Source of the DNA: a virus
Length of the DNA stretch: 33,816 bases
Strand: one strand, 5' to 3'
IMG/VR virus record: IMGVR_UViG_3300020472_000091
Coordinates: 1-33,816 of that record
Positions 877 to 3,355 of this stretch are shown here, one piece after another. Each line of letters starts with the position of its first letter. Positions within the stretch are counted from its first letter, which is position 1. The position numbers and the translations under genes were made by a program. The notes under the pieces are model-generated. The model worked only from the letters and a program-made list of their open reading frames with translations. It was not told the DNA's origin and did no database searches.

Positions 877-1092
877 ATGGAAAGATACACTTTTATATTC
901 GATGGTAAGGAAAAGATCAGAGTACCAGGTAAAGGCTTAAAAGAAGCACTTAGAGAATATAAACAGCAAAACCCAAAACAACTTGTTGCTACTGTTGAGT
1001 GGGTCAACAAAAATGGATCTGAACAAAAACAAGTTATTCAACTAAGACAACTTAACATCGGTATTGATAGACATGGAAACATAATTAGATAG
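877..1092 (+). CDS. Small hypothetical protein upstream of the DNA methyltransferases
   Basis: A 71-residue basic protein that I do not recognise. It begins with a beta-hairpin-like MERYTFIFDGKEKIRVPG, has a charged helix (KEALREYKQQNPKQ) and ends with a strand-rich part. There is no signal peptide or membrane segment. Its stop TAG shares its G with the GTG start of the next gene (TAGTG), so the two are probably translationally coupled, and it is the first gene of a modification operon (877-3355). Its position suggests an accessory role in modification, but nothing in the sequence fixes a function. Confidence 0.6.
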   Translation: MERYTFIFDGKEKIRVPGKGLKEALREYKQQNPKQLVATVEWVNKNGSEQKQVIQLRQLNIGIDRHGNIIR

Positions 1093-1766
1093 TGTTATTT
1101 TATCATGACGATTGCTTAGAACTAATAAAAACTTTTCCAGACGACCATGTAGATCATGTACTAACAAGTCCGCCATATAATATTGGTAGATCTAAAAATA
1201 CAAAATCTTTACAAAAAGCAAAATACAGTGGTTTTGAAGATAAAAATAAAAATTACTTTGAATGGTCAGTACAAGTTATAGATGAACTCAGAAGAGTTAC
1301 AAAAGGAAATGTTTTTTATAACATACAAGCTAACTACTACAACAAAAAAGATGTTTATAAATTAATGGGACACTATCACAAAGATCTAATTCAAAGTTTT
1401 ATATGGATTAAAGGACACACTGCACCTGCTTCTGAACCTTATGCAATTAGTAACTTCTATGAATACATTTGGGCGTTTTCTAAAAATTCAAGGATTAAAG
1501 GAAATGAAAAATATAACAAAAACATAATACAAACTGATTTAGGTGGTCGTCACAAAGGTTTCCATGCAGTTATGCACGATGATGTTGCAGATTTTTTTAT
1601 TCAGAACTTTACAAAAGAAGGTGAAGTGATACTAGATCCATTTCTAGGATCAGGCACAACAGGTGTTAGCTGCTTGAAAAACAACAGAGATTTTATTGGG
1701 ATTGAATTAGTAGAAGAATATTATTTCAAAGCACAACAAAGAATAGAGGATAGTTTTTTTAAATGA
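1092..1766 (+). CDS. Site-specific DNA amino-methyltransferase, beta class
   Basis: A 224-residue SAM-dependent DNA methyltransferase adding a methyl group to an exocyclic amine. Catalytic motif IV is TSPPYN (residues 25-30) and comes before the SAM-binding motif I, DPFLGSGTTG (182-191), followed by FIGIELVEEYY. This IV-then-I order defines the beta class of compact phage and CcrM/HinfI-like enzymes. TSPPY is frequent in N4-cytosine enzymes but does not settle base specificity. The start is GTG overlapping the previous stop; the end overlaps the next gene by ATGA. No restriction endonuclease partner is visible, so protection of phage DNA from host restriction is the likely role. The target site cannot be read from the sequence. 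Confidence 0.88.
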   Translation: MLFYHDDCLELIKTFPDDHVDHVLTSPPYNIGRSKNTKSLQKAKYSGFEDKNKNYFEWSVQVIDELRRVTKGNVFYNIQANYYNKKDVYKLMGHYHKDLIQSFIWIKGHTAPASEPYAISNFYEYIWAFSKNSRIKGNEKYNKNIIQTDLGGRHKGFHAVMHDDVADFFIQNFTKEGEVILDPFLGSGTTGVSCLKNNRDFIGIELVEEYYFKAQQRIEDSFFK

Positions 1767-3355
1767 AGTTAGGTAGTATGTTTTCAGGTATAGGCGGTAT
1801 TGAGCTGGGTTTGATGAGATCTGGTTTAGTGTCTAAAGTTGCTTGGCAAATTGATACAGATGAATACTGTACAGATGTCTTAAAAAAGCAATTTCCAGAC
1901 TCGCTAGTTATGAATAAAAAAGTAGAAGATATAAACACTAAATATTTGCCAGAGGTAGATATTATTAGTGCAGGGTTTCCATGTCAGCCAGTTAGCGTTG
2001 CTGGAAACCAGAAAGGAATAAAAGATGAAAGATGGCTATGGGATGAAGTTGAAAGATTTATTAATGAGATACGACCACCAATCTTCGTCTTGGAAAATGT
2101 CCCAAACATCCTCAGAGCAAGCAACGGAGAAGCCATTAACCGTGTCATCAAAGGTGTGGCCGAAATGCGGTATTATAGATTCGAGTGGCAACTTATATCA
2201 GCAAAATTCATTGGAGCAAGGCACAAAAGACAAAGATGGGTGGGAGTTGGAATCGTGGGAGACCCCAAACACTATGGATCACTTAGAACCGAGATCAGGC
2301 GAAGCTTTGGAGAATGTGCTGTATCGTGGAGATCCAGAGAGGAAGAGCAAAAGAAAAGGTACTGGCAACTTGAGAGAGAATCCGAAGCTTTGGTTAACAC
2401 CGACAACAATGGACAAAAAGGACGACTCATTGAAACACGCAACGAAATTAATGCAGGGAAAAACGAGGAGATCAACAGGTCACAGAGTGCAGAGGACATT
2501 GTCGGATCAAGTGTGGATGGACATGATAGAGAAAGATCCAACGCTAATGGAATTTTACCAAGATCACGAAATGATAGTGAGACCTCTTCTGCCAGAACAA
2601 CAGGAATGGGTGGAATATCTGAGAAGTCAGACAACAGCGACAGAGATGCACAAATTAACAGGAATAAAGAAAACGACAGTGGATCACTGGTTCAGGAGGG
2701 ACGACAAGGGCTTCAGCTATCCGAGTCTAGAAGATTGGAAGATGATGAAACCTCACTTAAAGGAAGTGAAGTTCGACAAAGAAATGACAACAGTGGAAGT
2801 GACAGAATGGACAGGGGACAAAGAAATGTGGCCGACACCATCGACACAGGACAACGAACATCTGAATCTGGAGCTGAACGAGAAGGGACGCAGAATAGCC
2901 AAGAACGGTGGGGAAGATCGATCCCTGAACCTAGCGGACAAAGTACAAATAAGGGAAACTTTTTCGACACCGAGAGCAAGTCAAGCAACGAAGCCAGTAA
3001 ACAAGAAAGCTCCATCTGTAGCGAGTGGATCTCACGGATCTACTTTAGAAATGGATGTTGGGGAACGGAATCCAGAGTTAATTGGTCAGAGACTCAATCC
3101 CCAATGGGTGAACAGACTTATGGGCTTCCCAGATGGGTGGCTGGATTAGGGATGGCTAATAGCTGGGGTGTTGACGATTCTTGGGAAAATGGGCTATCTA
3201 GAGTAAGAATTAGACAAGAAAATGATGTAGATCGATTAAAAGCACTTGGTAATGCAGTTGTACCACAGTTTATGGAACTGGTAGGAAGACTCGTAATTAA
3301 GTCAATTATTGAAGATAATTTGGTTTTTAATAGTGAAATTGTTGAAAAAAAATGA
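1763..3355 (+). CDS. dcm: DNA cytosine-C5 methyltransferase with overprinted middle region
   Basis: A 530-residue C5-cytosine methyltransferase. Visible motifs: I, MFSGIGGIELGL (6-17); IV, GFPCQPVS (71-78, catalytic Cys74); VI, ENV (111-113); VIII, ARHKRQRWVGVG (152-163); and the C-terminal IX/X region DRLKALGNAVVPQ (490-502). The target-recognition region between VIII and IX, about residues 170-455, is peculiar: almost entirely Arg, Ser, Glu, Asp, Asn, Gln and Gly, like a shadow frame. It has repeated V-x-D-T-type motifs (VGDP, VNTD, VADT, FDTE). Exactly these bases encode a second protein in the +1 frame (2025-3149). The ATG overlaps the upstream methyltransferase stop (ATGA). The motifs needed for catalysis are present. 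How it recognises DNA is unclear. Confidence 0.85.
   Translation: MKLGSMFSGIGGIELGLMRSGLVSKVAWQIDTDEYCTDVLKKQFPDSLVMNKKVEDINTKYLPEVDIISAGFPCQPVSVAGNQKGIKDERWLWDEVERFINEIRPPIFVLENVPNILRASNGEAINRVIKGVAEMRYYRFEWQLISAKFIGARHKRQRWVGVGIVGDPKHYGSLRTEIRRSFGECAVSWRSREEEQKKRYWQLERESEALVNTDNNGQKGRLIETRNEINAGKNEEINRSQSAEDIVGSSVDGHDRERSNANGILPRSRNDSETSSARTTGMGGISEKSDNSDRDAQINRNKENDSGSLVQEGRQGLQLSESRRLEDDETSLKGSEVRQRNDNSGSDRMDRGQRNVADTIDTGQRTSESGAEREGTQNSQERWGRSIPEPSGQSTNKGNFFDTESKSSNEASKQESSICSEWISRIYFRNGCWGTESRVNWSETQSPMGEQTYGLPRWVAGLGMANSWGVDDSWENGLSRVRIRQENDVDRLKALGNAVVPQFMELVGRLVIKSIIEDNLVFNSEIVEKK
2025..3149 (+). CDS. Overprinted WPTP-repeat protein inside dcm (+1 frame)
   Basis: A 374-residue frame nested wholly inside dcm. 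It looks like a real protein: balanced composition with many Trp, Met, Leu and Pro, and motifs I recall from proteins annotated next to or within phage cytosine methyltransferases. These are an N-terminal LLMRYDHQSSSWKMSQ, a WPKCGI segment, four spaced repeats (WETPNTMD, WLTPTTMD, WPTPSTQD, FSTPRASQ), and a C-terminal LNPQWVNRLMGFPDGW just before the stop. Its ATG has an AAAGGA Shine-Dalgarno sequence at 2012-2017 with a 7-nt spacer. Each repeat sits on the V-x-D-T repeats of the dcm frame, so the pattern could be a mirror of a dcm repeat. A stop-free 375-codon second frame in AT-rich DNA argues for selection on it. Function unknown; a methyltransferase partner is a guess. Confidence 0.55.
   Translation: MKDGYGMKLKDLLMRYDHQSSSWKMSQTSSEQATEKPLTVSSKVWPKCGIIDSSGNLYQQNSLEQGTKDKDGWELESWETPNTMDHLEPRSGEALENVLYRGDPERKSKRKGTGNLRENPKLWLTPTTMDKKDDSLKHATKLMQGKTRRSTGHRVQRTLSDQVWMDMIEKDPTLMEFYQDHEMIVRPLLPEQQEWVEYLRSQTTATEMHKLTGIKKTTVDHWFRRDDKGFSYPSLEDWKMMKPHLKEVKFDKEMTTVEVTEWTGDKEMWPTPSTQDNEHLNLELNEKGRRIAKNGGEDRSLNLADKVQIRETFSTPRASQATKPVNKKAPSVASGSHGSTLEMDVGERNPELIGQRLNPQWVNRLMGFPDGWLD

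Follow-up and report, generated by a model that had tools for sequence, protein, structure and literature searches.

The question raised by this locus is whether one stretch of DNA inside a viral cytosine methyltransferase gene encodes two proteins and, if so, what the inner one contributes. The window, as the whole stretch of DNA analysed is called here, is a virus record of 33.8 kb with terminase, portal, head and tape-measure genes. An earlier note had described an outer open reading frame (dcm) at 1763-3355 and an inner one in the +1 frame at 2025-3149, and both exist as given. We read the pair, with a probability of about 0.8, as encoding a C5-cytosine DNA methyltransferase of two subunits, the one for specificity being nested in another frame within the one for catalysis. 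The features of the locus are:

1092-1766, plus strand: upstream N4/N6-class methyltransferase gene (Pfam N6_N4_Mtase, E 1.2e-28)
1763-3355, plus strand: outer open reading frame (dcm, alpha), 530 aa, with motifs I-VIII, a long unconstrained linker and a C-terminal motif X
2012-2017, plus strand: AAAGGA Shine-Dalgarno site of the inner frame, 7 nt before the ATG at 2025
2025-3149, plus strand: inner open reading frame (beta), 374 aa, +1 frame, with an N-terminal domain, WxTP modules and motif IX
2025-2253, plus strand: zone A, the doubly constrained overlap of dcm motifs IV/VI-VIII and the inner N-terminal domain
2254-3092, plus strand: zone B, the inner target-recognition (TRD) modules, across which the dcm frame must stay open but is otherwise passive
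3233-3268, plus strand: motif X (RLKALGNAVVPQ) in the dcm frame, its core invariant in alignment A4

The N4/N6-class gene shares an ATGA with the dcm start, an overlap by which three methyltransferase polypeptides may be translationally linked. A blastn search of the region against phage records gave 0 matches.

Stops are absent from both frames in the window and in almost every relative. The double run of 375 stop-free codons had been noticed before, and synonymous-codon shuffles confirmed that the +1 run is not due to chance: in 20,000 shuffles of dcm the longest +1 run was 313 (mean 118) and none was stop-free across the overlap. Shuffling the inner frame synonymously introduced 16-19 stops into the dcm frame, with 0 of 5,000 shuffles stop-free. 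In neither direction does the coding of one frame account for the openness of the other.

Divergence by codon position was determined for 17 loci, the window and 16 viral relatives. Third positions of dcm changed fastest before the overlap (0.193/0.056/0.400 for positions 1/2/3) and after it (0.289/0.162/0.444), while all positions were slow in zone A (0.084/0.004/0.101). Over 2254-3149 the values were 0.339/0.140/0.094, the fastest being dcm position 1, which is the wobble position of the inner frame. Overlap-aware dN/dS in zone A was 0.07 for the outer and 0.12 for the inner frame. Over 2254-3149 the inner value was 0.147 (CI 0.115-0.183) and the outer ratios were NN/SN 1.85 and NS/SS 1.36; given the uneven substitution classes, we take these to show that the outer residues lack conservation in this part, and not that they are positively selected. 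Constraint on both frames at once is limited to motifs IV-VIII (2025-2253) and, at a weaker level, the surroundings of motif IX. Over motifs IV-VIII the dcm codons are near-frozen in a set of 160 diverse bacterial and viral loci (relative entropy 0.62 versus 0.96 before the overlap, P 8e-13), e.g., Leu as CTC in 130 of 131, Ala as GCT in 88 of 88 and 137 of 140, and Ser as TCT in 81 of 81 cases. An overlap-aware dN/dS of 0.12-0.15 marks the inner frame as a genuine, conserved gene. The openness of the outer frame in nearly every relative suggests that read-through to motif X is itself what is selected.

The inner frame might instead be a non-functional shadow, held open by the codon usage and composition of dcm, and the region is indeed unusually GC-rich and purine-rich for the window, which lowers the number of stops. 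The probability of this explanation is negligible: synonymous shuffles never remain open, the inner dN/dS is 0.15 against about 1 or more for the outer frame, codons are frozen across the 160 loci, and inner modules are read alone and in frame elsewhere. Barring an alignment artefact, the rates and the codon data rule it out. The two-subunit reading agrees with the earlier proposal that one stretch of DNA yields two selected products, whereas the further proposal of two conserved repeat proteins does not hold over the target-recognition region, where the inner protein alone is conserved. Four repeats had been said to coincide between the frames; they do, although two of the coordinates had been off by a few bases. 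What looks like VADT and VGDP repeats in the outer frame is the shadow of the inner WxTP units. The pairs, outer over inner, are:

2255-2256, plus strand: VGDP over WETP
2390-2391, plus strand: (L)VNT over WLTP
2828-2829, plus strand: VADT over WPTP
2960-2961, plus strand: FFDT over FSTP

Searched separately, as had been proposed, the outer frame matched Pfam DNA_methylase (E 2.6e-45) and the inner one PHROG_1008, 'DNA methyltransferase' (E 6.7e-10). The outer frame contains motifs I-VIII of C5-cytosine DNA methyltransferases (PF00145), including PCQ and ENV, with motif X in the same chain. Its match to M.HhaI is confined to residues 5-159. TRD and motif IX, which share the chain with these motifs in single-chain enzymes, are both found in the +1 frame. 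Motif X had thus been placed correctly at the end of dcm, but motif IX, assigned to the same frame, lies at 3093-3140 in the inner one. In the AlphaFold2 (AF2) model of the outer protein, residues 1-165 and the motif X helix were confident, with pLDDT of about 23 between them and very low values over 207-475; the best PDB match of the model by Foldseek was M.HhaI. The model thus predicts a folded large domain and a disordered linker.

The inner protein, for which 50 viral relatives were found, gave no credible match to Pfam or NCBIfam; PHROG_1008 was matched by 43 of 43 diverse members of the family, and neither the window protein nor these 43 relatives had an HNH or other credible Pfam match. 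Behind its N-terminal domain it is composed as follows:

2256-2390, plus strand: TRD module 1 (WETPNTMDH...), gained, lost or moved between relatives
2391-2828, plus strand: TRD module 2 (WLTPTTMDKK...), containing a helix-turn-helix (HTH) domain; the same module stands in the dcm frame in L023-L034
2577-2819, plus strand: HTH domain inside module 2, matched in a methyltransferase of Staphylococcus phage Alsa_2
2829-2960, plus strand: TRD module 3 (WPTPSTQDNEH...SLNLADKV), absent in L018 and L022, moved to first place in L042
2961-3092, plus strand: TRD module 4 (FSTPRASQATKP...)
3093-3140, plus strand: motif IX of C5-methyltransferases (LNPQWVNRLMGFPDGW), core invariant in alignments A1, A3 and A5

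The C-terminus (LNPxWVxxLMGFPxGW) stands at the position of motif IX, which the outer protein lacks, and in relative L080, where motif X follows in the same frame, the motif IX region aligns with positions 256-317 of PHROG_363 (dcm) at E 1.3e-7. Inner frames carry 1-5 xTP units (80 loci), and modules are lost, gained and reordered among near relatives; like multispecific phage C5-methyltransferases, the family has several contiguous recognition modules of variable number. The suspicion that the inner product supplies the recognition region missing from the outer one is supported by the presence of TRD and motif IX in the +1 frame, and the inner protein probably picks the DNA target. The HTH domain is 44 % identical (E 5e-21) to a domain of an N4/N6-class methyltransferase of phage Alsa_2 (L065, 1925-3067), where an HTH recognition module is inserted in the enzyme. 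The module thus moves between methyltransferase classes, and its occurrence alone and in frame in other enzymes indicates a real protein domain, with DNA methylation as the shared company. Modelled alone, the inner protein gave a poor AF2 result (mean pLDDT 42, 24 sequences; the HTH was the best-predicted part), which is unsurprising for half a domain and an alignment of so little depth. Its sequence had only a chance match in the PDB, to Period protein. To our knowledge, the inner N-terminal domain has no counterpart in single-chain C5-methyltransferases, which counts against a split enzyme.

The AAAGGA 7 nt from the inner ATG, pointed out in the earlier note, was recovered at 2012-2017, and an in-frame stop (TAA, 2019-2021) lies immediately 5' of the ATG. 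This ATG is present in all of the ~40 relatives shown and AAAGGAG is near-invariant, with a +1 stop usually 0-2 codons upstream of the Shine-Dalgarno site and ATG in close relatives. Among 159 diverse loci, a Shine-Dalgarno match of at least 4 nt preceded 62 % of the first inner starts versus 9 % of control starts, and the median distance from the upstream stop to the first inner start was 3 codons. Programmed frameshifting from dcm into +1 for the TRD and motif IX would yield one fused polypeptide and would suit the fact that the parts in the two frames sum to one canonical methyltransferase, as well as two relatives with a single frame (L170, L173). It is improbable in view of the stop so close to a conserved start in most close relatives, the short median distance and the Shine-Dalgarno enrichment; moreover, +1 conservation begins at the inner ATG, and regaining motif X would need a second shift back.

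Relatives with a different distribution of the motifs bear on the relation between the two products. In five loci (L080, L131, L168, L172, L174) dcm ends just after motif VIII, its frame is stop-filled over the TRD, and the inner frame continues through the TRD modules, motif IX and motif X; on the tree at least 3 changes are forced for these loci. In L170 and L173 one frame holds motifs I-VIII, WxTP modules, IX and X, with the inner N-terminal domain still in +1 and IX and X in the dcm frame, a placement that counts against the two-subunit reading; both loci are metagenomic, which leaves an indel error a small probability. In L023-L034 and L042-L045 the counterpart of the window's module 2 comes only after the inner stop, without overlap and in the dcm frame (54 % identity over 167 aa, E 6e-59, for L023-L034), the other frames being closed there in the one locus that was read out in full. 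A broken frame or a dN/dS near 1 had been named in advance as refuting a double gene. Both occur, but in a pattern that still supports a split enzyme, because the broken dcm goes with a motif X moved to the inner frame.

An inner product independent of dcm, i.e., a regulator, an anti-defence protein or a homing element, is about as doubtful as the frameshift. The HTH domain would suit it, and out-of-frame HNH genes in phage methylases have been published: in ShiLan, as in the window, a phage methylase gene harbours a second protein in a different frame, but there it is a mobile homing endonuclease insert, outside the enzyme (PMC11855218), whereas the window's inner protein has no HNH match. 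Against independence stand its motif IX and TRD modules, the joining of motif X to it in L080 and L131, the inclusion of motif IX in the dcm frame in L170 and L173, and its constant company with dcm in the best 80 bacterial matches.

Several loci deviate individually. L107 (1808-2927) has one in-frame dcm stop just 5' of motif X in an otherwise intact pair, which may be a pseudogene, a sequencing error or a recent split. In the shortened loci of Paenibacillus phage Lilo (L068) and Lactobacillus phage Lc-Nu (L071) the inner frame appears to be cut down or degraded, which may mean that the TRD array was lost. A single-base indel behind the motif X switch of L131 was considered and dropped; motifs IX and X are in tandem there and overlapped in nested relatives. 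In a Pyrinomonadaceae MAG (L158) an HNH-endonuclease-like +1 protein (CESCGGKSQIGIHHLDK...CAACHTKAHW; ~2607-3000, plus strand) directly follows the inner frame, and dcm stays free of stops as far as motif X. This dcm holds two out-of-frame genes, the second comparable to the ShiLan HNH.

Queries with distant members placed the inner family in phages of Paenibacillus, Lacticaseibacillus, Bacteroides, Salmonella, Pseudomonas and Burkholderia. A first scan of genome contigs with an alignment of close relatives found nothing; a broader alignment matched 405 bacterial-genome stretches, of which the best 80 were analysed. By record title these 80 come from at least 10 phyla. The inner frame overlaps dcm in +1 in 80 of 80 and is fully nested in 76. 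An inner frame without dcm was not seen among these best 80; retrieval used inner-frame motifs, by which free-standing inner genes are equally findable, the frequency of dcm without an inner frame lying outside its scope. Among evenly sampled Bacillota genomes, 3 of 299 had the family, one being the query's own; the family is widespread but sparse. Most annotations miss the inner gene. Paenibacillus phage Shelly gp55 and gp56 are annotated as nested genes (gp56 as 'g55 internal gene'), while the PHROG_1008 family is annotated merely as 'DNA methyltransferase' or hypothetical, and we found no functional or overlap analysis of it in the literature. In an E. coli XYEH3314 prophage (L282, 1489-2658) PGAP calls dcm two incomplete pseudogenes; yet neither dcm nor the +1 TRD frame contains a stop along its length.

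The multispecific C5-methyltransferases of the B. subtilis phages SPR, phi3T and rho11s have consecutive exchangeable recognition modules in a single chain; the window shares such modules but has them in a second polypeptide and another frame. Work by Trautner from 1996 on the phage enzymes is cited in PMC12707154. By analogy, the closest precedent would be the motif IX-containing small subunit of M.EcoHK31I, whose coding sequence, as reportedly described by Lee, Kam and Shaw in 1995, lies within that of the large one in a different frame, as in the window. M.EcoHK31I (YGGCCR) consists of two polypeptides, the large with motifs I-VIII and X and the small with motif IX (PMC3404938), the same partition by layout as in the window. 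In M.EcoHK31I the predicted TRD has been placed in the large subunit, whereas in the window TRD modules form an array in the inner protein, with 1-5 WxTP units across the family. In M.AquI (CYCGRG) alpha comprises motifs I-VIII and part of the variable region and beta the rest with IX-X (PMC3404938); the five loci in which dcm ends after motif VIII have a similar layout, unlike the window, where motif X has stayed with the outer frame and the inner frame is completely nested. A split C5-methyltransferase with an alternative-frame second subunit is therefore of a kind already known from M.EcoHK31I. The breadth, the modular TRD array and the frame switching of motif X and modules appear to be undescribed. 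A widespread TRD gene lying out of frame in dcm was not described in the openly licensed literature that we searched, an absence of little weight as evidence; the main text of the GeneTack frameshift paper does not mention one. It is likely, with somewhat less confidence than for the two-subunit reading itself, that many phyla and phages share a large undescribed class of C5-methyltransferases with the specificity subunit out of frame within the catalytic gene, shufflable module cassettes, and motif X and modules that switch frames.

In the proposed working of the locus, the outer polypeptide would form the SAM-binding, catalytic large domain with motifs I-VIII and X, its frame across the TRD region being read only to reach motif X. 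The inner polypeptide, translated separately from its own internal ribosome-binding site, would be the small domain, with tandem exchangeable recognition modules (WxTP...D...SLxxxV, one with an HTH) and motif IX. The halves would associate to an active, probably multispecific modification enzyme, which would protect the phage DNA from host restriction.

If true, this would be the C5 counterpart of a system with separate M and S subunits. The pair would rank with the longer same-strand gene overlaps of prokaryotes and with the most widely conserved ones, with a clear relation between the products as two halves of one enzyme. It would explain phage and prophage dcm genes that seemingly have no normal TRD, in which the inner gene usually is unannotated or the outer one is called a pseudogene, as in E. 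coli XYEH3314. The family would illustrate frame switching in natural overlapping gene pairs and could be mined for split methyltransferases whose modules can be swapped.
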